Shown here in pieces: positions 123 through 22,079 of a stretch of 50,142 nucleotides of DNA (position 1 is the first letter of the stretch; each line of letters starts with the position of its first letter). The stretch lies in contig CALIDI010000041.1 in assembly GCA_938023035.1 (NCBI GenBank), positions 1 through 50,142 of the forward strand, read 5' to 3'. A program made the position numbers and the translations under genes. The notes beneath the pieces are model-generated. The model saw only the letters and a program-made list of their open reading frames with translations. It was not told the DNA's origin and did no database searches. Origin of the DNA: an uncultured Leptolyngbyaceae cyanobacterium (GTDB taxonomy: Bacteria > Cyanobacteriota > Cyanobacteriia > Leptolyngbyales > Leptolyngbyaceae).

Positions 123-140
123 GATTCATGCAACAAAGCC
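123..140. repeat. Terminal inverted repeat of the IS element
   Basis: The 18 bases at 123-140 are the reverse complement of an IS903-like terminus. They lie 36 bases after the transposase stop codon and abut the interrupted cas10 reading frame. The partner repeat is outside the window. Confidence 0.7.
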
Positions 141-1921
141 GAGTTGACTTACCAGCTTTTCGGCATAGTAGATAGGTGTCTCTACAGCTGTGATCAATAC
201 CCCCACTGACATACTGAGCTGGCAGCGGGAGGCCGGTGCGTGGTCGGGTCGGTAACGATGGATATCTTTTTGAGGCGGTAACTCATCAGTTGGAACCTCC
301 AGATTTTTGTCCTCTAGCAAAATCTGCTCGAATTGCTCGCTCAGGGTTTGGGCGATCGCCAGCCCTTTGTGGGCCGGCACAATTAGCAGTACATCATCCC
401 CACCAATAGTGAGAATCTCAAACGGGTGTATCCATTTGCCATCCCGCCCCTTTGTTTCAGCGTCATCAATTCCCTTAAGCTGATGAGGCGAAAGATGCTG
501 CGCCAGTGCCCGGTAGACACAGTATTCCGTTGCTTGAGAAACGACTTCACTAAAGCTTTGATAAGCTTCAGGTGTTTTGATATTTCTCTGAATGTAGCCC
601 CCCATATTGTTGCCATCGGCGTAAATATAGGCAACAAATCCGGTTGGTGTGCTAGCATTCCCAATCTCATGGAGCGATCGGGCTTCCTTAGAGTTCTCCT
701 CTAGGCGCTGATGGTCGGGATTATATTGCCTTACCCAATTTGGATGTGTTTGTAAGAATTGCTCGAATCGGCTAACCCAACTTTCTAACGGTTCAGGTTC
801 CCAGTCATCCAACCAGTTCGCCGGATTAAACCAGGCCGTGTTTTGGTTATCTCGCTTAGATTTTTGCCCAGCAATGCGCTTGCGGGCTAACACATCTGAA
901 AACCAGGGTTCACCGGGTAATCGGTTGGCTCGCTGCACCGCCGATCGCCGTTCAGTCTCATCCCGATGCAGGTAGGGATGGGTTCCTAACAGGGGGGTGC
1001 CGAGTGGGGCGTTTCTCCCCTGGCATATCCTGCCCAGCCCGTCGCTGGTTAAAACGAATGGCAAGCTGGGTCACCAGTTCGTTAAAGTTCTTGCGCGACT
1101 GGAACTGCTCAAAGGCATCGCCATCCGGGTTGCCGTAATAGGCCTTTACGAGGTCGCGATCGCGGTTTTGCTGATACCACTCGTACCAGTTTGTTTGCTC
1201 GATCGGATCGTTGAGCCGTCCAAAGCGCAATTCCAAAAGTCGGAAGCGATCACCCACAGCACAGGAGTTGGCGGTTAGAGTTTCCTGGGTGTAGCGCTTC
1301 TCGATCTCATTGGCTAAATCCTGCCCATAGGCAGGTGGGCAGAAGGCTAAAATGTTGCCGCCAGTTGAATAAATGATCAGCTCAGGGATGAGGGCCTGGG
1401 ATAATCCAGGAAAATCTTGCTCCAGCCATGCACGCACCTCACTGCAATATTCAGGTTCATTCCGACATTGCTGAAACCTGGAGGATTGCTCAGCCTGAAA
1501 AAACGCAGGTAAATCTACCAAATTAATCCGATCCAGCAGGGCTGATGCCCCCCGGATATCCGGCAGTTTTGCAGCTTCAAAGACGTATTGCTTAATTTTG
1601 GTGGCACCACCATAAACCAGCCCAATCTGGGATTGCCAGAGCTGGGGATAGGTTTCTGTATATGCCTTCAGGGGGGGTACAGGTTTTGGGATACTCCAAT
1701 TGATTAAGCTGACGAGCATTCTCTAGGTGAAATTGCACCTCGGATGGCACCTGATCCGGCTTTCCGGCTCGTAATGCCTGCACCATTTGCTGGAGAGTCG
1801 AAAGTGGGTACTGTGGCTCGCGCTGACCTCCCCACGCAAGACACCAGGCGATCGCAATGGTGATTTGCTTCTCACTGTCTTCCCGTTTATTAGTTTGCTC
1901 TTTGTCAAGCATACTATCCAT
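126..1921 (-). pseudogene. cas10: Second cas10 (Cmr2/Csm1-like), frameshifted twice and truncated by IS
   Basis: Three overlapping frames join into one Cas10-like protein. The N-terminal piece (from ATG at 1921) continues into a second frame at a C7 tract (plus-strand G7 at 1671-1677) and into a third at a G4 tract (1017-1020). Removing one base from each tract restores continuous sequence. The palm domain is recognisable: GGATKIKQYVFEAAKLPDIRG, then a YADGNNMGG motif, then GGDD encoded at 393-404, the polymerase/cyclase motif that makes cyclic oligoadenylate. No HD nuclease motif is evident. The protein stops after a YYAEKLVSQL stretch because the IS element replaces the rest, so the last helical domain is missing. 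It overlaps the relic CARF gene upstream by 8 bases. It is probably non-functional as sequenced, although the two homopolymer shifts could be sequencing errors or slippage sites. Confidence 0.85.
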
Positions 1922-2098
1922 TCTGTTTCACCCATTCTGCAATACGACTACCCAAATTCATTAAATCTGCTCGTCCAAAGACCGCTATTTTCTGATTTCG
2001 CGTCGCTACCTCCAATTCCGATCGCAATGAAGCCGGATTTGCGCTTCTGCCCCACCCAATTGTCGTGCCCGCACACTGGCTTCCAGAGGAGATTTCAC
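1914..2098 (-). pseudogene. Relic C-terminus of a second CARF nuclease (Can2/Card1-like, DUF1887)
   Basis: Between the RAMP stop codon and the second cas10 lies about 185 bases whose translation, read in two frames, matches the C-terminus of the intact CARF gene at 11631-12899. One frame gives EASVRARQLGGAEAQIRL, parallel to EAYIRARQLGGDEARVAL in the intact gene. The next gives IAVFGRADLMNLGSRIAEW, parallel to LTVFGCEDLPNLSAKIEQW. The rest of the gene is gone and the two frames are offset, so it is dead. The intact CARF gene also lies directly before a cas10 and overlaps it, so this relic indicates that a CARF-cas10 pair once existed here too. Confidence 0.75.
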
Positions 2099-2136
2099 TC
2101 ATGGGTAAAAATAGATGGTCGGTCTGGTAGTTATTA

Positions 2137-4311
2137 TCATGGACGCTTCGGTCTTTGAGTTGCCCGTTCAAGGGCAGCAGCCATGCTGGTTTTCCCAGTT
2201 CCAGCAGAAGAGGATTTTTGAGATTTAGAGGCAGAGCGATGGTGCTCCGCACCGCCCGGAGAGCCGCCCTTACTTGGCTTGGGCAAATTGGGCTTGGGCG
2301 AGTTGCCTTTCCCAGAATTTCCTGAGTTAGGATTATCATTTTTATCATCACAATTCTCCCAGCCAATGACTTGCAGTGGCGTGGGTAGGACGGGGCGATC
2401 GGCATACTCGTTAACCTTGCCTTTTTTCGGTGTACCAATGTGAGGCTGGCTGGCATCCCGCTCGATTTCCAGATAACGAGTTTGCTCAGAGGGTGGAGCC
2501 TCAGTCCAACTCAGCATGGCCAGCAGCATTTTGATACGTCGCATGTCTTTTAGTGAAGATTCAGTGGCACCAATTGCCTGACGAATATAGGCGTCAAATG
2601 CTTCGATATAGGGTTCTGATGAATCCGGCTCAGCAGAGTATCCCGTAAACCACTGCTCATCCGCAAACAGCTTCTCGTACCCCTGCTTGCGTTGATTCAG
2701 ACAAAGCTGATGGGTAATCTTGACAGCTCCCATTCCCAATGGCTTACCCATGCCTAAGGAGAGCCGATATCGCTCATCCTGGGCCAGATCCAGCACCCAG
2801 AGTAGCGCCCCTAGTTCAACCTCACTGAGATTCTCAAAATGAATCGTGAACTGAAAACTAACGCCTGGTTTAATTGGCTTAATCTGGGTTTTCTGCGTGT
2901 CAGAAACTTCCTCAGGGTTTTCGAGCGTAATAGTTGGCTCTTTCTTATGCCAGTAGAGCTTATGCCCCCGAATTACGGTTTCGTTGCCCGGCGCACTACC
3001 ATAATGCTTCAGGTCTCGCTTGTCAGCGTTAGTTTGCACTAAGTAGTGCTGAAACGTGGTTGGCTTAGGCCCTACAAGAATTTTCGGCACAATAGGGTTA
3101 TTAAACAACCAAATATCCTCACCTTTAATCTGCTGGCAGATTGCATCTGATATGAAAACGCGACTAGGAACAGCCTGAGTGGAATCTTCCTCTTGCTTCT
3201 CATCTCGGACAAAACCAAAGATAGCATCAGCAAAATCAATAGTTTTGGAATCTTTCAGTAACTCAGGAATAAAATCTTCTGCTGAAGCAGCCCTTCCATT
3301 TTTCTGAGGAGAATAAGGAATCCGAAAGTTTGGACTCTGACCAAAAAGTGTAACCTCTCCTCCCTGCTGTTCTGGTTGGCAGTAAAATATGCAGCGACCA
3401 TTCTCCAAAACTCCGAGATCTTCCTTGAATGGGGGAGACTGCTTTTGAAAATCCGTTAGTGAACCACAGTAATCTTGAATGGCAGCATCATCGATTTTGA
3501 TCAATTCAGCATTTGCATCGGGTTCACGAACAAGGCAATGGTTTTTACGGTTTGTACTTTTAGGATCATCACTTCCCTCTGCCATATTACCACTGGTGAC
3601 AAGTACCCCAATATACTCCTGCCCATCTGGCCTTGGGCTAATTTGTTTAGCAAAGTGGCGATTATTTCTAGTAACAACATCTCCAAATCCTACATTCACA
3701 ACATACTGAGGTCGATAGTTAGCCTTTGTCATAGGGGTAAAGTCAGGAAAGCTTTGTTGAAAGCTTTCAACCACTTTCTTTTCTTTAATCCAGACAAATG
3801 AATCACTGCCTATCAGTCTTGCAGGACGGATATACCAGCCATCGTTTCTTTTAACTAGATAGCCAGCCCTAACATTTTTCAGGTATGTCTTATAAGGCTC
3901 TGCCAGCGGATCATCTTTCTTCGCAGCAACCGCGCGAAAGAAGAACTTTTGTTTGCTAGATACCCGATCAATCTTGCCAAAACTCACAATTTCAACCAGG
4001 GTACGGAGCATACCACGAATGCTACTACCTGGAATTACAGGTTTTAACTTGTCAAAAATATAGAAGAAATCTGGCAGGTCTTTTGCTTCTTTACCCTGTT
4101 TGAATTCATCTAGAGTTAATCCGCAACGAATATATAGCGGAGATTCAGTGGTGAGGATGCATTCGATTTTTCCGGTGTAGCGATCGGGATGATAGCGATC
4201 GCCATCTGGAATAGGCTGAGCTTGAACAACCTGGTCAGGTAGTTCGACAAAATTGTAAGGAGCAAGAGCTTTGCGAGATTCAGGAACGCAGGCAATGTGC
4301 TTAGGAAACAT
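2137..4311 (-). CDS. Large RAMP-superfamily CRISPR protein, TIGR03986-like (Cas7 with insertion)
   Basis: This is a 724-residue RAMP (repeat-associated mysterious protein) that likely forms part of the backbone of a type III effector complex bound to crRNA. The N-terminal third has the Cas7/RAMP core signature KPVIPGSSIRGMLRTLVE (about residues 90-110). A second RAMP-like segment near residues 520-545 contains the glycine-rich LSLGMGKPLGMGAVKI. Length and order fit the TIGR03986 family. In type III-D complexes a Cas7 protein with a large insertion fills one backbone position, and I infer that role here. The C-terminus (about 660-724) is a low-complexity, basic Pro/Gly/Ser/Lys tail, probably disordered. 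A 57-bp gap separates it from the Uma2 gene upstream, the first break in the overlapping chain. The relic CARF gene follows immediately. Confidence 0.8.
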   Translation of the reverse strand: MFPKHIACVPESRKALAPYNFVELPDQVVQAQPIPDGDRYHPDRYTGKIECILTTESPLYIRCGLTLDEFKQGKEAKDLPDFFYIFDKLKPVIPGSSIRGMLRTLVEIVSFGKIDRVSSKQKFFFRAVAAKKDDPLAEPYKTYLKNVRAGYLVKRNDGWYIRPARLIGSDSFVWIKEKKVVESFQQSFPDFTPMTKANYRPQYVVNVGFGDVVTRNNRHFAKQISPRPDGQEYIGVLVTSGNMAEGSDDPKSTNRKNHCLVREPDANAELIKIDDAAIQDYCGSLTDFQKQSPPFKEDLGVLENGRCIFYCQPEQQGGEVTLFGQSPNFRIPYSPQKNGRAASAEDFIPELLKDSKTIDFADAIFGFVRDEKQEEDSTQAVPSRVFISDAICQQIKGEDIWLFNNPIVPKILVGPKPTTFQHYLVQTNADKRDLKHYGSAPGNETVIRGHKLYWHKKEPTITLENPEEVSDTQKTQIKPIKPGVSFQFTIHFENLSEVELGALLWVLDLAQDERYRLSLGMGKPLGMGAVKITHQLCLNQRKQGYEKLFADEQWFTGYSAEPDSSEPYIEAFDAYIRQAIGATESSLKDMRRIKMLLAMLSWTEAPPSEQTRYLEIERDASQPHIGTPKKGKVNEYADRPVLPTPLQVIGWENCDDKNDNPNSGNSGKGNSPKPNLPKPSKGGSPGGAEHHRSASKSQKSSSAGTGKTSMAAALERATQRPKRP

Positions 4312-4368
4312 AGGCGATTGCTTTTAGAATTAGCGTGAACAATTGATTCAAAATGACCAAGAGTGGGT

Positions 4369-7643
<3,275 letters not shown>

Positions 7644-7647
<4 letters not shown>

Positions 7648-9239
7648 TTTTGTTTCTCCTTAGTTGCCTGTTTCGCAACTGCCATGATCAGCTTAAGTGT
7701 GTACTCTGCTGCCAATGAGTCATCAACGGTTGCTTTGACTTCTAAACTTAGTTCAACCTCTGGCGTTGGGATAATCCAACCTTGAGGATTCTCCAGTTGA
7801 TTTTGCAGCCAACTATAAAAAGGCTCACTGGTTTGCTTAAATCTGGTCTTCTGGAACTGCTCTAAGGCCGTTTTTGTGAGGTTGTCACGCTTCAGAAATT
7901 CCCTAACCTCTTGGAGGCTGGCTGGCTCAGAACTTAATCCTCTGCCAGCAATAAGTTGCAATCTGGAAAGCTGGCTGTTGGATATATGTCCAACTTCTAG
8001 TTTTCTGCGATCGAGTTCTGTTTTTAGAAGCTGGTCTAGTTTTTGACGCAGAAGCTGCGTTGCCATTCTCTGAGCTAAAGGCAATGATGACGAACTGATT
8101 GAAGGCTGCTGATGTGTAGTTTGAGGTTTAGGAGGCTTCTTGACTTGAAATGTGGCTTGTCGATGCCAGTTGATAGCTACACGCCCAAAGCCTTCATGGC
8201 GGCGATCGCCAATCCCCTGCCAGTGCAATTGTTGAATCTGTTCCTCAAGAAGGGTAGCATTCTCAAAAACAACCACCGTGCCAGCAGCGAGGGCTGGCAC
8301 CTGGGGTAAAGGCAGTCCCCACTTGCGATTAAAGCCACCAACGAAGGTCTGGCTGCTGAAGATATGCTCTGGTTTTGGGGTTGGGAGAGAACTACCGCAG
8401 ACGGCATTAATGGCTGCTGCAATCAAGGTTGGATCGGTGCTGGGTTGACCGTTGGCATCTCGCAGTAAGGTATCACTGAGTAAGGTAATGGTGAGATGTT
8501 CTGCATCGATATCCGCTTCATCTCCTAATGGTTGAAACTCTTGCCACGAGTTTTGAATTTCGTAGGAAATTCGAGTGTGACCGTATCCGGCGCTGCGCGA
8601 TCCTCCGAGCCACAAATCCGGTTTACTCAAGAGTTGCTTAAAAAGGTCAACATCTTGTGCTTCACAAAGGATGACAGACTGAAATATTTGTCCGGCATCT
8701 AGCGCATCGTAACAGAAGATTTCACCTTCACTATTGGGTTGACCTTCTCGTTTACTGGAGCGTCCTTTTTGGCGATCGCGGGTATTGTGGATATTAATAC
8801 GACGCTCAGGAGCATATAGTCGAATATAGTTATCTTCAAAGGCACAAAACTGATCCCGAATGACCTTCAGAGACTCTTGTTCGTCATCCTGTTCTAAGCT
8901 CAGGTCGTAAACTTTAGTTACTGTGTCTTCCTTAATTTCAGCATCCTTGGGTTTATACCAGGAGCGAGGTATAGGTAATGTGCGACGCTGCCCTTTTTGA
9001 CTGACCAGATAGGCATTGAGATAACGAGTGTGATTAGATTGAAAAAAGAGCCGTTGTGTTTCCGAATCAGTTAAATCTAGTTCTCTAACTTTTTTATGTT
9101 GCAAATAACGACCAATTACGGCACCTCGAATCATGCTGCCCGGAATATAGTCATAGGAGACATCACTGTTAGGATCGCCCTGAAACGAAGTGGCCAGAAT
9201 AGGTTGTAGAGTTTTAATGGTGACTAGAATGGCTGGCAT
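7644..9239 (-). CDS. csx10: Csx10 (Cas5-family RAMP with helical C-terminus)
   Basis: Csx10 is the Cas5-like subunit that caps the crRNA 5' tag in type III-D complexes. I place the start at 9239 (531 residues) rather than farther upstream, because an AGGAGG ribosome-binding site lies just before this ATG and the RAMP core begins at once: MPAILVTIKTLQPILATSFQ, then YDYIPGSMIRGAVIGRY. Two later glycine-rich loops, LWLGGSRSAGYGHTRI and GIGDRRHEGFGRVAI, are typical of Csx10. From about residue 380 onward the protein is a long, charged helical region that could supply a Cas11-like small-subunit function. The gene follows cas7 by 2 bases and overlaps the double Cas7 by 4. Confidence 0.88.
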
Positions 9240-9241
9240 AT

Positions 9242-9892
9242 TTATGCCTCCTGAACAGCGAAAAAGCGATCGAGGTAATTTGAGGGTAGAGATTCTCCAT
9301 GAAGGCAACAGTGCACATGCCCCCGTCCCCGGTTGCGACCACTGCCTAGATAGCGGAGGGCTTTGGCTCCGATCATCAGTAGACAAAGCTGATCATCTGT
9401 GGGTTGCTGCTCAAAAGAGAGGTCAGCCGTAAAGGTCAGGTCTCTCAATACAACACGAGCAGAGCGGAGACTCCCTTTATCTGGTACGCCACTTTCAGGA
9501 TTGATGGCCGTTTGGCGACGGATTGTGGTGAGAGAGTCTAAAATTTCAGCTCTGGTTAGCTTCTCCCAGCTAATTTGGTAGGCAACTGCCTGGCGCAAAT
9601 CCTCCGGTAAACAAGCATCTCCCACATGAATCGCCCCCATCGTATCCAGGGTACTGCCGGGTTTGCCAAACAATTCCCCAGCGACCCCTTGCCAGTGAGA
9701 TTGCTTATGAGGCAACGCATGAATCAAGTTGTCACATTCTTCACTCAATAAGCCTTTGAGCGTTCGTCCACGCAAATAGGGAAATCCATAGGGATCATGT
9801 TCCACTTCCTGATCAATCAAGCCAGCTACACCGTCCCCTCGACCAAAGGTAGTGTCACTAAGCAAGTGAATGTTGAGCCTATAAATTGACAT
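9242..9892 (-). CDS. cas7: Single-domain Cas7 (Csm3/RAMP family)
   Basis: A 216-residue RAMP protein of Csm3-like size. It shows DTTFGRGDGVAGLIDQEVEH at the N-terminus with a conserved Asp (about residue 27), the RAMP motif FPYLRGRTLKGLLSEECD, and the C-terminal glycine-rich loop LGSGRNRGRGHV. Csm3-type Cas7 proteins form the RNA-binding filament and cut target RNA every six nucleotides. The stop is 2 bases before the csx10 start, and its ATG directly follows the stop of the 56-aa ORF, so translation is probably coupled. Confidence 0.85.
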   Translation of the reverse strand: MSIYRLNIHLLSDTTFGRGDGVAGLIDQEVEHDPYGFPYLRGRTLKGLLSEECDNLIHALPHKQSHWQGVAGELFGKPGSTLDTMGAIHVGDACLPEDLRQAVAYQISWEKLTRAEILDSLTTIRRQTAINPESGVPDKGSLRSARVVLRDLTFTADLSFEQQPTDDQLCLLMIGAKALRYLGSGRNRGRGHVHCCLHGESLPSNYLDRFFAVQEA

Positions 9893-10063
9893 CTAATTGC
9901 TCCCCTGCTGCCGAAGTGCTGGTAGAACTGATTTGTAGGCGAGGCGAAGGCCAAGGTGAGCGCTAAACATTGCAATCAAAGTTTCGTATTGCTGCCGACT
10001 CACATGGGGCAGAAAAATTCGCGCTTCGCTAAGGGGGTCGAGTGGTTTTGTTAGCACACTCAT
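9893..10063 (-). CDS. Small 56-aa protein between cas10 and cas7
   Basis: An open frame of 56 codons starts at an ATG overlapping the cas10 stop (ATGA arrangement) and ends with a TAG immediately before the cas7 ATG. The protein begins MSVLTKPLDPLSEARIFLPH and continues with a segment predicted helical, ending in ALRQQGSN. I do not recognise the family. The seamless packing between two CRISPR genes, with no intergenic base to spare, argues that it is translated. It might be a small helical subunit or the remnant of one, but it is much shorter than known Cas11 proteins. Confidence 0.6.
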   Translation of the reverse strand: MSVLTKPLDPLSEARIFLPHVSRQQYETLIAMFSAHLGLRLAYKSVLPALRQQGSN

Positions 10064-11634
10064 TGGCTCACCTCCAAGGGAATATAAAAATCCATTGCTT
10101 CGATCGCATCAAAATAACCACAGATACCATCTAGCCACCCCTGTTCTGCCAGTGGAGATTTCAGTCTGCGATCGCTACCAGGCATGATAGGAAGTGTCTC
10201 TAACTGATAAGCCGTTAAAAACGACTTGGTGGCCGCTGATCCTTGTCGCAACACTTCTCGCAGTGCCATCACTTTATTCCGCTTCTCTTTCCAGTCACCT
10301 TTTATAAACTCTTTGATCACGGATTCAAAATTCGCCCAGTTTTGCCAATCATAACGGTCAGCATGTAACAGAAGCGGTCGCATTTCCAGGTGCTGACCAT
10401 CTTGACTACGATATTCCCACTCTCGAATTTCTGCCAGGTCACCGAGCAAACCACTGGCTGCGATATGCCAGTCAATGGCAGAAACAGCTTCTGAACGTTC
10501 ATCTCCGCCCCGTTCGCGTTTGGCAATTTTCTTGGCAGATTGACACAGGGCTTCACTGAGTTCATAGGCTCTGGCAAAGGGGTAGTGTGCTTTGACAATG
10601 CAAACGCCAGCACAAGCCGTTAATGATTTACCATCTGCAATGGGTTGTGTTTCAAATAACTGGAGGGCGCGAACTGCCAGCGTTAATCCCAGGCGACCAT
10701 CACAGACAAAGGTAATATCATCTCCACCATAAACCAGTGGCCGGAAGGGTGGCTTTTGGGTTGTCAGGTCTAGTTTGTCTTTGAGCATATCTTTGAGCAT
10801 ATCCCAGTTAGCAATCAGTTCTTGCGTCAACTGTTGGAGGACAGCTTTCCCAGCTTGTTCAACACTCCGGGAAAGGTCGCGCATGGCGATGATGTAGTCG
10901 CGATCGCTTTTATCCTTAGCAAATTCCTGGAATCTTTTTCCCATGCTGTTGCCATCAATATGCACGATGGCAATGTAGCTCATTTCATCCTTGGAGCGCC
11001 CGAAATCATCAAAATCCAGAGGAATGTCCCATCCATCGGGCAGTTGCAGCGTTTGCTTCAATTGTGTGTTGGCAGGTCTGACAGCTTCTAGCTTCGCCAC
11101 AATTTCCCGGGAAACTGGATAGTCCGCAGGCGAACAATGATTCTGGCTTCGATCGACCGCTACCAAGCGAGTGGAGTTACAGTCTTGCGTTACACCCAAA
11201 CCTAAGAGTGGAGAAGAGGGAATGCGCGATCGCTTCTTCACGTCCAGATCAACTTTCATCATCTCCTGGACTGTATCATAGAGATGATCTTGCCCCCATT
11301 CAAAATCATGGCGATGAGCCACCACCAGGTTAATTCCTGGGGTTTTTTTTAGGACTTTAAGGCTGAGTTTCTGGGTGAACGAAATAGCTACTTCAGCCGA
11401 CTTAAACAGTAAGACGGTGTTACCGCCCCCAGCATAAACCAACTCTATATCCTGAGTTTCAATCGAGGCTTCAGGGTTTGTAATCTTAAATTCCTGTTTC
11501 AAAATTTGCCTGACCCAGACATCTGTCACTTGCCCGACTAAATAGGAGGCACCGATGTTTTCTCGCAGGCGGTTGCTGCCGAAAATATAGGACTGGATTC
11601 CAGTGGTATCCAGAACTGTGACGGTTAATTTCAT
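10060..11634 (-). CDS. cas10: Cas10, type III-D, GGDD-bearing and without HD domain
   Basis: The intact signature protein of the locus, 524 residues. The N-terminal TTGIQSYIFGSNRLRENIGA is the usual start of the first palm domain (Gln-Ser-Tyr-Ile-Phe). The second palm has IVHIDGNSMG at about 223-232 and VYGGDDITFV with GGDD at 303-306, the motif that makes cyclic oligoadenylate on target-RNA binding. No His-Asp nuclease motif is seen at the N-terminus, so it probably signals rather than cuts DNA itself. A 12-bp tandem duplication (10778-10801) repeats the DMLK codons just before GGDD without breaking the frame. It overlaps the CARF gene by 4 bases upstream and the 56-aa ORF by 4 bases downstream. 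Confidence 0.92.
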   Translation of the reverse strand: MKLTVTVLDTTGIQSYIFGSNRLRENIGASYLVGQVTDVWVRQILKQEFKITNPEASIETQDIELVYAGGGNTVLLFKSAEVAISFTQKLSLKVLKKTPGINLVVAHRHDFEWGQDHLYDTVQEMMKVDLDVKKRSRIPSSPLLGLGVTQDCNSTRLVAVDRSQNHCSPADYPVSREIVAKLEAVRPANTQLKQTLQLPDGWDIPLDFDDFGRSKDEMSYIAIVHIDGNSMGKRFQEFAKDKSDRDYIIAMRDLSRSVEQAGKAVLQQLTQELIANWDMLKDMLKDKLDLTTQKPPFRPLVYGGDDITFVCDGRLGLTLAVRALQLFETQPIADGKSLTACAGVCIVKAHYPFARAYELSEALCQSAKKIAKRERGGDERSEAVSAIDWHIAASGLLGDLAEIREWEYRSQDGQHLEMRPLLLHADRYDWQNWANFESVIKEFIKGDWKEKRNKVMALREVLRQGSAATKSFLTAYQLETLPIMPGSDRRLKSPLAEQGWLDGICGYFDAIEAMDFYIPLEVSQ

Positions 11635-12899
11635 CGGCCAGCCTCCGCATCGTTATCGCGAATCCATTGCTCAATTTTTGCAGACAGATTTGGTAAATCT
11701 TCACATCCAAATACGGTCAGCTTACTGTCGCCTTGAGTATTAGAATCAGGATTCGACTTGAAAACATTGGTGATCTCCGTCTTCAGTGCATTAGAGTCCC
11801 TCTCGTTTGCACAGCAGACTAAAGCAACCCTTGCCTCATCGCCTCCCAGTTGCCGTGCTCGAATATAAGCCTCAAACAGTTTTTGTTTACATCCAGGTTT
11901 CTCGTCAATCGTTGTACACGAGAGAGCAAATAACTGATAGCCTCTGGTAAAGGCAACATCAAACTGAAACTTTGTTCTATTCTCAGTGCTAGCAGGGTCC
12001 TTAATCCAGAAGGAGGCTGCACTCTCGTGTATTTTGAGTTCTTTTGGAACTTTCTGTACTTGCTGCAAAGTGTAATCTTCCAGCCATTCTCCATCTAGCC
12101 ATTTACAGAGGTTGGATAGATCTTTGAATCCGTTCTTTTGAACATCCTGTAGTGAAATCGTGTTAGCGCTATCAGAATATCCAAGTGCTTTTAGAGCTTC
12201 AATGATTTCGAGATGGTCTTTCAAAGAAGCTTGCTGTGTGGTCTCCGAATCAGAAGGTATTTCCAAAGATAGAGGGGCAACTGCTTTCAATTCCCTTTCC
12301 TTCAACCATTTGTCTTGTTGATTGCGAGTCGCCTTACGCAGCACTTTGTTACACCATTCACGCCATAATTCCCCACATTTGGCATTGGCATGGAATTTGG
12401 CAAATGCTGAAGCTGCTTCTGGGCTAGTCGGTGCATAGTCTGGCTCAGATAGCAATTGCCAGCCGTGAATCTGGAAAATTTTAGCTATCTTGACTCCTAA
12501 ATCTTCAGGGTCAACTTTGAGACGAATGCGATCGCCCCCTTCTTGATCAATACACATCTCTAGCCATCGCGGATCAAGGTAGCTAAAAACGGCTTCCTGT
12601 CTTTTCTCTTTGAATATGGCGCGATAGGCATGGACGGCCATTGCCTTCGTACCACCTGTGTAATTCAGGCCGACTTGCCCATTCAGATCCTTTATGACTT
12701 TCTGAATTCTTGTCTGAATCTGGTAGGCATCAGACTCGTAATTTTCGAGGGAAATTAGTTGAGTTCGACCTGTATCACTCAACTCCTCATCCAAAATCTT
12801 TTGTAGCCGCTCAGCCGGTTCTTTAGTTCCAGTAGTGTAGACCAGATAGGGAGTGCCGCCTTGCTGAAGTAATAGCCTGGCTGCTACGTAGTATTGACT
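11631..12899 (-). CDS. CARF-domain nuclease-like effector (Can2/Card1-like, DUF1887), start missing
   Basis: The protein has an N-terminal CARF domain, where VAARLLLQQGGTPYLVYT is the first strand-helix and LNYTGGTKAMAVHAYRA is the cyclic-oligoadenylate-binding loop. The C-terminal part resembles the nuclease domain of Can2/Card1 (FDVAFTRGYQLFALSCTT, then EAYIRARQLGGDEARVAL). The expected E-x-K of the PD-(D/E)XK site is S-x-T here, so cleavage may be lost or altered. The reading frame is open from an in-frame stop at 12900-12902, yet the first CARF strand has no ATG. The only in-frame start is a TTG at 12794, which would delete part of the CARF fold. The gene is probably 5'-truncated, or it starts after an undetected frameshift from the ATG at about 12930. 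It would respond to second messenger made by the overlapping cas10. Confidence 0.75.
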   Translation of the reverse strand, partial: SQYYVAARLLLQQGGTPYLVYTTGTKEPAERLQKILDEELSDTGRTQLISLENYESDAYQIQTRIQKVIKDLNGQVGLNYTGGTKAMAVHAYRAIFKEKRQEAVFSYLDPRWLEMCIDQEGGDRIRLKVDPEDLGVKIAKIFQIHGWQLLSEPDYAPTSPEAASAFAKFHANAKCGELWREWCNKVLRKATRNQQDKWLKERELKAVAPLSLEIPSDSETTQQASLKDHLEIIEALKALGYSDSANTISLQDVQKNGFKDLSNLCKWLDGEWLEDYTLQQVQKVPKELKIHESAASFWIKDPASTENRTKFQFDVAFTRGYQLFALSCTTIDEKPGCKQKLFEAYIRARQLGGDEARVALVCCANERDSNALKTEITNVFKSNPDSNTQGDSKLTVFGCEDLPNLSAKIEQWIRDNDAEAGR

Positions 12900-15951: not shown

Positions 15952-16419
15952 CACCTTCGAGGAATCTGGCTTACGCTTTGATAGCGAAGAGGCCTTCCTT
16001 GATGACCAATCGAACGGCTGGAATCTCCAGAAATCCCAGATTCGCGACCTCTGCGCCCTCTCCCGGCTCAGGTGCCTCTTGGCCGTCGCTACCCTCTATG
16101 TCACCGCCCAAGGCGTCGAGGTCGTCGCCGCACGCAGGCTGGTGGTGATCAGCGGCGAAAAATGCCTCTATGTCACCGCCCAAGGCGTCGAGGTCGTCGC
16201 CGCTGGGTTGACCCCCATTGGTTTCACGGCAATAGCTACTTTCGCATTGGCGGGGATTGGGTGAAAGCGGCCTGGGAAAACAGTTGACAACTCATTCATC
16301 ATGTCCCATTCACCCACAACCGCGACCCTGAAGCCGCTATGGCGTCTCGGAAACAGCATGAGCAACGCGCCTATCGAATCGAGTTCAAAATACACACGTA
16401 CTGCTATGTCGCCGATTAG
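15952..16419 (+). pseudogene. C-terminal remnant of an IS4-like DDE transposase
   Basis: Starting at FEESGLRFDSEEAFLDD, this piece matches the C-terminal third of a cyanobacterial DDE transposase: SNGWNLQKSQIRDLCALSRL, then TLYVTAQGVEVVAA, then in a shifted frame WVDPHWFHGNSYFRIGGDWV, a TGA stop, and finally NRDPEAAMASRKQHEQRAYR to a TAG at 16417. It is broken by a frameshift, a stop, and an internal 72-bp duplication (16093-16203). The N-terminal part is missing, because the fragment is fused directly to the truncated IS3 OrfB. Confidence 0.7.
16093..16203 (+). repeat. 39-bp direct repeat pair with 33-bp unique spacer inside a dead transposase
   Basis: A perfect 39-bp sequence (key core CACCGCCCAAGGCGTCGAGG) occurs at 16093-16131 and again at 16165-16203, separated by 33 unique bases. 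The unit is 72 bp. It repeats the TLYVTAQGVEVVAA codons of the transposase remnant. Only one copy is expected in the transposase family, so the second copy and the spacer are an insertion. Confidence 0.9.
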
Positions 16420-16611: not shown

Positions 16612-17529
16612 CTATTTGGGATTTTCTTCCGCAGGCAATGCATCAATTGATTGAAGGATATGGCGTGTAATTTCCTCTCTTTTATAGAGATCGTCTAGTC
16701 GGTTTGGCGTATCGATATTTAGAGCGAAGAACACAGGGCCTGTCGGCCACTCGACCCACCCTACCCACCAGCCCCAGCGCCCTTCCCAGCCGGTTTTAGC
16801 ACGTAGAATCCAGTCCCGCCCTGCTTCAACGATCATAATATCCTTGACTAATCGTTGGTGCTCAACCCTAAAAGGTAATTTGTTTCGATACAGCTTCTGT
16901 AGAAAATAAATTTGCTCTTGTGCTGAGATTGCTAACGCTCCATCAATCCAACAAGCACCTTCGCTAGTGCTTGGGTCTGCGTTTCCGTAATCAATTTGTG
17001 TCAAATACTCTCTTACTTTTGCTTCTCCAATTTCGTTAGCAAACATTTCGTAAACCCAAACGGCTGAGTTTCGCATAGCTGAGCGCAAGGTTTGATTCTG
17101 ATTGTGTGGAGCAAAGTCCCGTTCCACTCCATCCCACTCGAAAACTTGAAATTCATCCCGAACAATGCCTACATCGAGCGCAAAGAGAGAGTGCGGAATC
17201 TTGAATGTTGATGCTGGGGAATAAGCTCTGTCAGCCCGTTCCTGGTCATAGACCCACAACTGCTGAGCATCTCTGCGCTGATCTAGTACCACGATGGTTC
17301 CTTGAGCCTCAGCACCGTCGAAGAAACTGGCCCAATCTGGTCGCTCTTGCCTTTCTACACTGCCTAAAGGGCTGTTATATACGGTAGTCGAATTACTTAT
17401 CTTCGGTCGCTGCGCAATCTGCGGGGTATGTAGTCTACTACTAAGCTCTGCTGAGATAGGTGAAGTAAGAAATATCCCTGCAATACCTATGACCAAAGAA
17501 ACCAGTAAAAGGAAACGATAATTCATCAT
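16612..17529 (-). CDS. Class D (OXA-type) serine beta-lactamase
   Basis: A 305-residue penicillin-recognising enzyme with an N-terminal signal peptide (hydrophobic segment about 5-27, ending near SPISA). All class D motifs are present: S107-T-F-K110 (PASTFKIPHSL), S155-A-V157, Y181-G-N183 and K245-T-G247, with the tryptophan-rich WGWWVGWVEW after it. It would hydrolyse beta-lactams in the periplasm through acyl-serine chemistry with a carboxylated lysine. The mature enzyme is preceded by about 35 extra residues, longer than most OXA enzymes. It lies between insertion-sequence debris and other foreign-looking genes, which suggests acquisition by transfer, although cyanobacterial class D homologues also exist. 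Expression and spectrum cannot be judged from sequence. Confidence 0.9.
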   Translation of the reverse strand: MMNYRFLLLVSLVIGIAGIFLTSPISAELSSRLHTPQIAQRPKISNSTTVYNSPLGSVERQERPDWASFFDGAEAQGTIVVLDQRRDAQQLWVYDQERADRAYSPASTFKIPHSLFALDVGIVRDEFQVFEWDGVERDFAPHNQNQTLRSAMRNSAVWVYEMFANEIGEAKVREYLTQIDYGNADPSTSEGACWIDGALAISAQEQIYFLQKLYRNKLPFRVEHQRLVKDIMIVEAGRDWILRAKTGWEGRWGWWVGWVEWPTGPVFFALNIDTPNRLDDLYKREEITRHILQSIDALPAEENPK

Positions 17530-19841: not shown

Positions 19842-19883
19842 CCTGACTTATTAACTCTCTATCCTGACTTATTAACTCTCTAT
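19842..19883. repeat. 21-bp perfect tandem duplication
   Basis: Two adjacent copies of a 21-bp sequence (CCTGACTTATTAACTCTCTAT) sit at 19842-19862 and 19863-19883. The second copy overlaps the stop codon of the small ORF at 19872-20051. Confidence 0.9.
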
Positions 19884-20098: not shown

Positions 20099-20643
20099 TC
20101 AAGCAGCTATGCCGCCATCAATTTTGAGGCTCGCACCCTTGACAAAAGCGACTTCAGGGCCGGCGAGATAAGAAACCATGCCAGCCACCTCGTTGTCCTA
20201 TCCGTAGCGACCAAGAGCAATCATGTTAGTGATTTCTTTAGCAGAGTCCCCATCTGCGGGATTCATATCGGTATAGATCAGACCCGGTTGAATATTGTTG
20301 ACCGTGATGCCGCGAGTCCCCAAATCGCGGGCGAGACCACGGGTAAAACTAGCGATCGCCCCCTTCAACAACGCATAGACCAAGAGACCGGCAAAGAGGG
20401 TAAAATCACTGATGAAGCTGCCAATCATTGCCAATCATAGTGATCCGTCCTCCATTGCTCATGTGACGAACGGCCTCTTGAGCGGCGACGAAGACGCCTT
20501 TGATATTAATGTGATATTAACACGATATTAATGCGATATTAATGGCAACGAGTCAGTCAAATTCTTCCATCGAGAACTGTTTGATCGGCGCTACAACCGC
20601 AACGCCTGCGTTGTTGACGCGAATGTCGAGCCGACCGGAGACC
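20099..20643 (-). pseudogene. Short-chain dehydrogenase/reductase (SDR) pseudogene
   Basis: The minus strand reads as a decayed SDR: VNNAGVAVVAPIKQFSMEEF (NNAG motif), a TGA, then a region expanded by an 11-bp tandem repeat (20502-20545), GVFVAAQEAVRHMSNGGR, then YALLKGAIASFTRGLARDLG (active-site Tyr-x-x-x-Lys) and ITVNNIQPGLIYTDMNP, ending near LKIDGGIAA at 20099. Stops and shifts interrupt it repeatedly. The N-terminal Rossmann glycine motif is gone, and the IS256-family element abuts the broken end. Confidence 0.75.
20502..20545. repeat. 11-bp tandem repeat, four copies
   Basis: GATATTAAT recurs at 20502, 20513, 20524 and 20535 with an exact 11-base period; only the last two bases of each unit vary. 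It falls at the INIKGVF codons of the SDR pseudogene and adds three extra units (33 bases). Confidence 0.9.
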
Positions 20644-20697: not shown

Positions 20698-22079
20698 ATG
20701 GTACGCAAGAAGAAAGAACCGAATCGCATCGACAATATGCTGGACGACCTCTTGGCCGAGTGCCAGGGGCCAGAGGACATTTTAGGAGAGTCCGGCCTGC
20801 TCAAACAGCTGAGTACGCGCCTAGTCGGGCATGCGCTAGTGGGAGAACTCAGCCACCACCTGGCCCACGATGAGACCGGCCCTGAGGGCAACTCAGCGCG
20901 CCGCAATAGTCGCAACGGTTACTCGAAGAAGACAGCTAATACTCAATCGGACACCAATACCAACACCAACCGCAATAGTCGCAACGGTTACTCGAAGAAG
21001 ACAGTGCAATCAACTTTTACTCTTGAAAGATGTAAGAGGTCGATTTTGAGTCGCAACGGTTACTCGAAGAAGACAGTGCAATCAACCCAAGGTGATCTAG
21101 AACTGGCGATACCCCGTGACCGCAACGGCGACTTTGACCCCATATTGGTACCCAAACATCAGCGCCGCCTGTGCAGGCTCGAAGAGAAGATTCTGGCGGT
21201 GTATGCCCAAGGCATCAGCACCCGAGACATCAGCGCCCAACTGGAAGAACTCTATGGAGCTAACGTCTCAGCATCGCTCATCAGTGAGGTTACCGATACC
21301 GTCAGCGAGGACGTCAAAGCCTGGCAGTGCTGACGCTCGATGAGGTGTTTACTATCGTCTACCTCGATGCTCTTTACGTCAACATCAAGGTCTCAGGCCG
21401 AGTCAGTAAACGGGCCGTCTATGTTGTGCTGGGCCTTACGATGGAGGGCAATAAAATGCTGCTCGGCCTGGGGATTGGGGAGGCCGAAGCCGAAGGAGCG
21501 AAGTTCTGGCTCAAGGTGCTCGTTGACCTCAAAAACCGAGGTTTGAAGGACATCCTGATTGCCTGTGTCGATGGACTCACGGGCTTTCCTCAAGCCATTG
21601 AAGCCGTCTATCCCGATACCCAGGTGCAGTTATGCATCGTTCATCTGATTCGCAACTGCCTGTGCTATGTGCCGTGGAAAGATAGCAAGGCCGTCGTCGT
21701 TGACCTGAAGCCCATCTACCAAGCGGCGACTCTAGCAGAGGCGGAAGTCGCTCTGGAGACCTTTGCCGCCAAGTGGAATAAGCATTACCCGGCCATTAGC
21801 CAAATCTGGCCGCGCGATTGGGACGACATTGTTCCCCCGTTTGACTCCCCCATGGATATCCGTAAGGCGATCTACACCACCAATGCCATCGAGTCCCTCA
21901 ATCGCTCTCTGAGCAAGGTCATCAAGACCAAAGCCGTCTTCCCCGATGAAGAATCTGTTTTCAAACTGATGTATCTCGCTATGAACAACATTGCTAAGCG
22001 ATGGACTCGGCCCATCAAAAACTGGAGAGCTGCACTTTCACATTTTGCTATCCTGTTCCTAGAGCACTTCAAAATCTGA
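20698..22079 (+). pseudogene. IS256/Mutator-type transposase, frameshifted with internal repeat insertions
   Basis: The transposase begins MVRKKKEPNRIDNMLDDLLA and runs to a stop at 21331-21333. The rest continues in another frame from about 21327 (LDEVFTIVYLDALYVNIKVS) to 22079. The catalytic residues are present across the two frames: Asp in YLDALY, Asp in CVDGLTGFPQAI and Glu in TTNAIESLNRSL. A single small indel near 21330 separates them. In addition, the N-terminal region carries three copies of the SRNGYSKKT segment separated by unrelated residues, where the family has one. Both insertions keep the frame (69 and 72 bases). Confidence 0.85.
20901..21086 (+). repeat. Three 35-38 bp direct repeats with 34-bp unique spacers inside the IS256 transposase
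   Basis: Copy 1 (20901-20935) and copy 2 (20970-21004) share 35 bases; the 34 bases between them are unique. Copy 2, extended (20977-21014), and copy 3 (21049-21086) share 38 bases; the 34 bases between them are also unique. The common core is GTCGCAACGGTTACTCGAAG. The layout is repeat, spacer, repeat, spacer, repeat with units of 69 and 72 bases. Confidence 0.92.

Follow-up and report, generated by a model that had tools for sequence, protein, structure and literature searches.

The DNA analysed here, called the window throughout, is a whole contig of 50,142 nucleotides from an uncultured Leptolyngbyaceae cyanobacterium. It contains a set of type III CRISPR effector genes and, in two transposase genes, short exact direct repeats separated by spacer-like inserts:

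126-12794, minus strand: effector genes of type III (III-D-like), lacking cas1 and cas2 (NCBIfam matches)
16093-16131, plus strand: first 39-bp copy at a second locus, which lies in another transposase remnant
16132-16164, plus strand: second locus, spacer-like insert of 33 bp, found once in the genome
16165-16203, plus strand: second locus, second copy of the 39-bp duplication
20698-21333, plus strand: N-terminal part of an IS256-type transposase gene, holding the repeat-insert structure (ORF list)
20901-20935, plus strand: copy 1 of the duplicated target, 35 bp
20936-20969, plus strand: insert 1, spacer-like, 34 bp, found once in the genome
20970-21014, plus strand: copy 2, 45 bp, with both overlapping duplications inside
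21015-21048, plus strand: insert 2, spacer-like, 34 bp, found once in the genome
21049-21086, plus strand: copy 3, 38 bp

The sequence-only reading that this analysis followed up had described three copies of 35-38 bp and two unrelated 34-bp inserts at 20901-21086, and that is exactly what lies there. Both duplications are perfect (20901-20935 against 20970-21004, 35/35; 20977-21014 against 21049-21086, 38/38), with copy 2 holding the second copy of the first duplication at 20970-21004 and the first copy of the second at 20977-21014. The two inserts have unrelated sequences. The duplications are mutually offset by 7 and 10 bp, such that the borders of the first are not reused by the second, and neither resembles either of the native CRISPR repeats of this genome (36 and 37 bp). 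In the ORF list the IS256-type frame stops early, at 21333, and the gene continues over 21327-22079 in a different frame. Just upstream of the element are short, spacer-free tandem repeats (2 x 21 bp at 19842-19883, about 4 x 11 bp at 20502-20544).

This IS256 copy is the sole one matched in its own genome. Relatives are encoded at 55 loci in other genomes, 14 of which were aligned across the site, and in 13 of these 14 the target is single and the insert absent, the nearest being L018 (Nodosilinea sp. LEGE 07088). The uninterrupted site that we looked for thus exists in relatives. The one exception, L004 (Leptolyngbya sp. PCC 7375), has an unrelated and longer insertion at the site; it spans about 2500-2725, has inverted ends and occupies nearly the same N-terminal place of the gene.

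A repeat scan of the whole window also revealed the second locus, 4.8 kb from the IS256 structure and absent from the earlier reading, where 16093-16131 and 16165-16203 are alike at 39/39 bases. Between the two structure-bearing transposase remnants sits an ORF (16612-17529, minus strand) that has the look of a class D beta-lactamase, judged by its motifs alone. The repeat scan found no CRISPR array in the window, the genome search placed neither cas1 nor cas2 there, and Rfam gave no match to it at gathering scores. Among the III-D-like genes, the NCBIfam matches to Cas10/Cmr2, TIGR03986 and Csx7 are above curated cut-offs and that to Csx10 (E 2.7e-44) is below. Cas10/Cmr2 itself is matched in two overlapping minus-strand ORFs, its end by 126-1064 and its beginning by 958-1719, as though a frameshift had divided this gene. 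These effector genes had been placed about 5 kb from the IS256 structure; they in fact end about 8 kb away and are probably not the source of the integrase, and a role for them is unsupported, as Cas1 and Cas2 were each found only once, on a different contig and next to III-B genes.

That contig, C28, is not the one that holds the IS256 structure, and the one Cas1 and the one Cas2 on it are the observed adaptation machinery of this genome; that they are the agent of the structures described here is inferred. They adjoin a III-B module in which Cmr2, Cmr4 and Cmr1 match above the curated cut-off and Cmr3 and Cmr6 below. The Cas1 frame runs unbroken over 343 residues and can be aligned with solved Cas1 structures through the blocks that presumably hold the catalytic E, H and D. 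Both Cas1 and Cas2 are present and, as far as can be predicted from their sequences, apparently intact. An array with 36-bp repeats and two complete 35-bp spacers follows the III-B/Cas1-Cas2 region and is truncated by the contig end. In a second native array, at the start of contig C6, the repeats are 37 bp long and spaced 71-76 bp, which implies native spacers of 34-39 bp. The sequence-only reading had proposed comparing the duplicated length with the CRISPR repeats of the strain, and it matches the native 36 and 37 bp.

We surveyed the source genome (G000; an assembly of 4.75 Mb, rated 95.9% complete) for further structures of this kind, using a detector for spaced direct repeats (spacings of 40-110 bp, score at least 24). 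We scanned 60 stretches drawn from 40 contigs together with the window and C28, altogether 1.244 Mb or 26% of the genome; the sample was not random, as it was taken at contig starts and fixed inner places. A size class was defined as duplications (R) of 33-42 bp around inserts (S) of 32-40 bp, limits that were fixed after the first events were known. Fifteen structures fall in this class, three in the window and the others at L072:336, L081:17719, L085:18858, L088:13832, L089:9298, L149:8791, L157:977, L158:4927, L160:10203, L160:12912, L161:3938 and L165:12253. The structures and their sizes are direct observations: R is 33-40 bp with a mode of 36 bp, matching the native repeats of 36 and 37 bp; S is 33-39 bp in all 15, matching native spacers of 34-39 bp; and units are 69-75 bp long. 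Their targets differ from one event to the next and overlap only between the two events in the IS256 gene.

Without the window and C28, 12 class structures remain in 1,174,333 bp (the 60 stretches). These stretches yielded 17 non-array rows, of which the five outside the class are of other shape and include two outliers, L154:2796 (S46) and L161:7497 (R26). Where we speak below of 17 events, we mean the 15 class structures plus these two outliers. Genuine arrays (L016, L044, L061 and L071) were excluded from the counts, as was an older, more diverged candidate at L085:14762, and the outliers are not counted in the class. This candidate (L085:14762-14858) is a more diverged repeat-spacer-repeat with a spacing of 70 bp, and is perhaps an old event of the ectopic-insert kind. 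Looser scanning of the own genome, which was not extended to the controls, turned up additional rows that were short or diverged, and these were left uncounted. Mononucleotide shuffling of the 60 stretches produced no structure in the class, which argues that structures like that in the IS256 gene are not chance. Extrapolation gives 49 events per genome, with a 95% range of 25-85.

We consider it likely that each structure records one ectopic (off-target) spacer integration by Cas1-Cas2, which is the best explanation we can offer. Cas1-Cas2 loaded with a prespacer of about 34 bp would attach the prespacer ends to opposite strands at two points of the chromosome some 36 bp apart; gap filling would then leave the 36-bp target on both sides, like the repeat duplication in a true CRISPR array. 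Two such integrations at overlapping sites in the IS256 gene would give the order repeat-spacer-repeat-spacer-repeat. Two overlapping off-target events were what the earlier reading had proposed, and with 12 more structures in class against none in 1.44 Mb of relatives this remains the best explanation of the IS256 site. It had also seen there a neo-CRISPR-like array in a mobile element. The resemblance holds for the shape only, as the second duplication ignores the borders of the first and there is no RNA evidence; because of the offsets of 7 and 10 bp and a sequence unlike the native repeats, we read the site as two putative ectopic integrations without a working array. A special role of the mobile element is likewise unsupported, since other events are intergenic or sit in or at host genes. 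We infer that the majority of events are mere by-products and serve no immune function.

As regards dependence on cas1, class structures were absent from three relatives without a Cas1 match (G001, G012 and G020; 705,878 bp), one of which, G001, is of the same genus as the source genome, and also from eight Cas1-bearing relatives (G003, G007, G013, G015, G016, G019, G022 and G023; 738,983 bp). The contrast between 12 in the 60 own-genome stretches and 0 in the pooled relatives has p 6.6e-5, and against the Cas1-less and the Cas1-bearing set alone p is 0.0035 and 0.0029. The most similar Cas1 proteins among the relatives are those of G015 (71%) and G019 (70%), whose 500 kb sampled contained no class structure, so the presence of a Cas1 that is 70-71% identical is insufficient. 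The event load is thus a peculiarity of this genome or of its close kin, and no general trait of cyanobacteria with Cas1. In the 55 named IS256 loci (277 kb), class rows came only from two true arrays. True CRISPR arrays lie beside IS256 copies or fragments on two other cyanobacterial contigs (L016:3940-4262 and L044:569-2180). One structure in a Cas1-bearing relative, L131:7894 (R35, S42, 33/35 alike), falls just outside the class and was not counted.

The silence of the Cas1-bearing relatives, even those with 70-71% identical Cas1, leaves room for something else being special here, such as an unknown enzyme that makes staggered cuts about 36 bp apart, with DNA of about 34 bp captured during repair. 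We regard such an enzyme as improbable, for it would have to match the native arrays in both duplication length and insert length by chance.

Ectopic integration by Cas1-Cas2 brings with it the question of where the inserts came from. By direct search with a joined query, 17 of 17 (15 class, two outliers) occur once in the 4.75-Mb assembly; the best further match is of 18 bases and runs across a join in the query. The search of the IS256 inserts proposed earlier thus succeeded in part, in that they are absent elsewhere in the assembly, and failed to find a phage or plasmid source. For the joined inserts as a whole, phages and plasmids gave only weak partial matches and no credible source. Exact 20-mers of seven of the 17, searched against viral contigs, returned one match, which ended with the 20 bases searched. 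A 20-mer from a native spacer found no match in viral contigs either, so the lack of insert sources says little, and the foreign origin of the inserts remains an inference. The inserts at L161:3974-4011 and L161:7523-7559 carry inverted repeats (stem scores 6 and 9.5), higher than the others, and may be of another origin.

The uniqueness of the inserts also bears on replication template switching, in which a polymerase leaves its template, copies some 34 bases from another place and resumes some 36 bases upstream, giving repeat-filler-repeat. The layout would be the same and no integrase would be needed. We give this account only a slim chance: it predicts a genomic source for the filler, whereas every insert occurs once; it has no length ruler, yet 12 of the 17 non-array rows in the 60 stretches fall within R 33-42 and S 32-40; and relatives of similar size and kind have no such structures.

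The state before insertion could be seen directly, as a single target, in two cases, the IS256 site and L089:9298 on contig C24. At the latter, a caspase-like gene is broken in two, and both pieces can be aligned to a paralogue from the same genome. The first piece ends at paralogue residue 494 and the second begins at residue 487; the paralogue thus has the duplicated residues only once, and it lacks the insert. It is continuous across this site, though a separate event (L160:12912) lies at its far end. For other sites, the single-target state is supported only by the longer reading frames that appear on closing the gap: when this was done by script, frames of 656, 572 and 410 codons emerged at L089, L157 and L085, whereas the filled sites are cut or shifted, and the translations read as caspase-like, a membrane protein and TonB-receptor-like, respectively. 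Some events therefore break genes, while others are intergenic or at gene ends. A search by DNA for the empty sites of two loci in 39 genomes of the family left one unmatched outside its own genome and gave only short matches for the other.

One or two mismatches separate the copies in seven of the 17 events, which argues for events of different ages and hardly for one recent burst or a product of assembly. An assembly, library or amplification artefact of one genome has in its favour that the load is confined to this assembly among those sampled and that no reads are at hand. We nonetheless think it a poor candidate, given the diverged copies, unit lengths in class that vary over 69-75 bp and so fit no fixed read-length effect, their match to native CRISPR unit lengths, and inserts that are not copied from elsewhere in the assembly.

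Ordinary protein-repeat or tandem duplication within genes, with selection keeping the frame, would explain why the three window units (69, 72 and 72 bp) are all multiples of three, but can be set aside almost entirely, since the unit is a multiple of three in 8/17 events overall and 5/14 outside the window, some events are intergenic or gene-breaking, those outside reading frames refute it as a general account, and the inserts are absent from the aligned IS256 relatives. An in-frame rule was accordingly rejected, and with these counts the window unit sizes do not amount to one.

If Cas1-Cas2 integrated these inserts, its choice of targets was loose. Outside the borders, C is over-represented at -4 (18/30) and -2 (17/30), the strongest two of 22 positions examined; the whole border motif exceeds random sites (p 0.013) and is weak. 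In the native leader, position -2 is C and position -4 is G. A preference for hairpin-rich targets was rejected (mean stem score 4.41 against 4.37 at random sites, p 0.36), and a general likeness of targets to native repeat 1 was unsupported (p 0.33). Likeness to native repeat 2 reached p 0.0076 for the set mean, led by a single site, L072:336. There, the target (L072:336-444) is alike to the 37-bp native repeat at 16 of 19 bases, a likeness equalled by none of 4000 random sites, and could be either a target resembling the repeat or what is left of a decayed CRISPR. The pattern fits an integrase that keeps its length ruler and slight base contacts, and little else. Against ectopic integration stand the variation of duplication length over 33-40 bp (partly chance extension), the two outliers, the weak motif, targets unlike the native repeats except at L072:336, the lack of a credible protospacer in phages, plasmids or viral contigs, and the absence of events from 500 kb of G015 and G019, which have a similar Cas1, together with the non-random sample, the class limits fixed afterwards and the lack of reads.

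Spacer-size chromosomal inserts flanked by copies of about 36 bases suggest that the enzyme that writes CRISPR arrays misfires often enough to break genes. A bolder possibility, which we put forward tentatively and hold somewhat less probable than its negation, is that the integrase of this lineage has lost most of its target specificity and has long acted as a transposase-like mutator, scattering about fifty spacers, breaking genes and occasionally integrating twice in one place, with the IS256 structure being a two-spacer array at birth.

Off-target spacer integration is usually regarded as a rare side reaction. Casposons, which use a Cas1 homologue, and insertion sequences are kilobase elements with terminal repeats and short target duplications; the structures here share with them an integrase-made target duplication, but the insert is only about 34 bp and unique each time. 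Closer to our case, Nivala, Shipman and Church (Nat Microbiol, 2018) reportedly observed non-canonical off-target spacer integration in vivo in E. coli, and are said to have noted a few putative natural events in Yersinia pestis and Sulfolobus islandicus. Common to those events and ours are a single spacer-sized insert outside arrays and a target duplication of repeat length. The differences are that ours occur naturally, in a cyanobacterium whose adaptation module is of type III-B, and number an estimated 25-85, some of them in genes, two overlapping and with targets mostly unlike the native repeat. Their study is cited in PMC9456107 and PMC11687729. In vitro, purified type II-A Cas1-Cas2 acting on plasmid targets gave mostly half-site products, with leader contacts at -1 to -4 and G preferred at the joint, according to PMC6895254. 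Broad integration in array-free DNA and a slight border base preference are shared with our events, whereas here the preference is for C at -4 and -2 outside the joint and a G preference at the joint is not clear. Ectopic acquisition described in PMC8047081 occurs inside an existing array, at its repeats; both cases involve integration elsewhere than the leader end, but ours is in unrelated chromosomal DNA and not a real array. Off-target integration is already known as a kind, and its natural abundance here seems new: a literature search that left out most subscription journals turned up no natural genome reported to carry such events by the dozen.

The implications extend in several directions. 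First, a genome with an estimated 25-85 such insertions, some genic and some old enough to have diverged, would mean that CRISPR adaptation contributes measurably to mutation. Second, it would supply a natural data set on the choice of targets by Cas1-Cas2 without leader or repeat. Third, it would show a concrete route to new arrays. Finally, the control of Cas1-Cas2 targeting becomes testable, by comparing this strain with relatives whose Cas1 is 70-71% identical and which are eventless in the stretches sampled.
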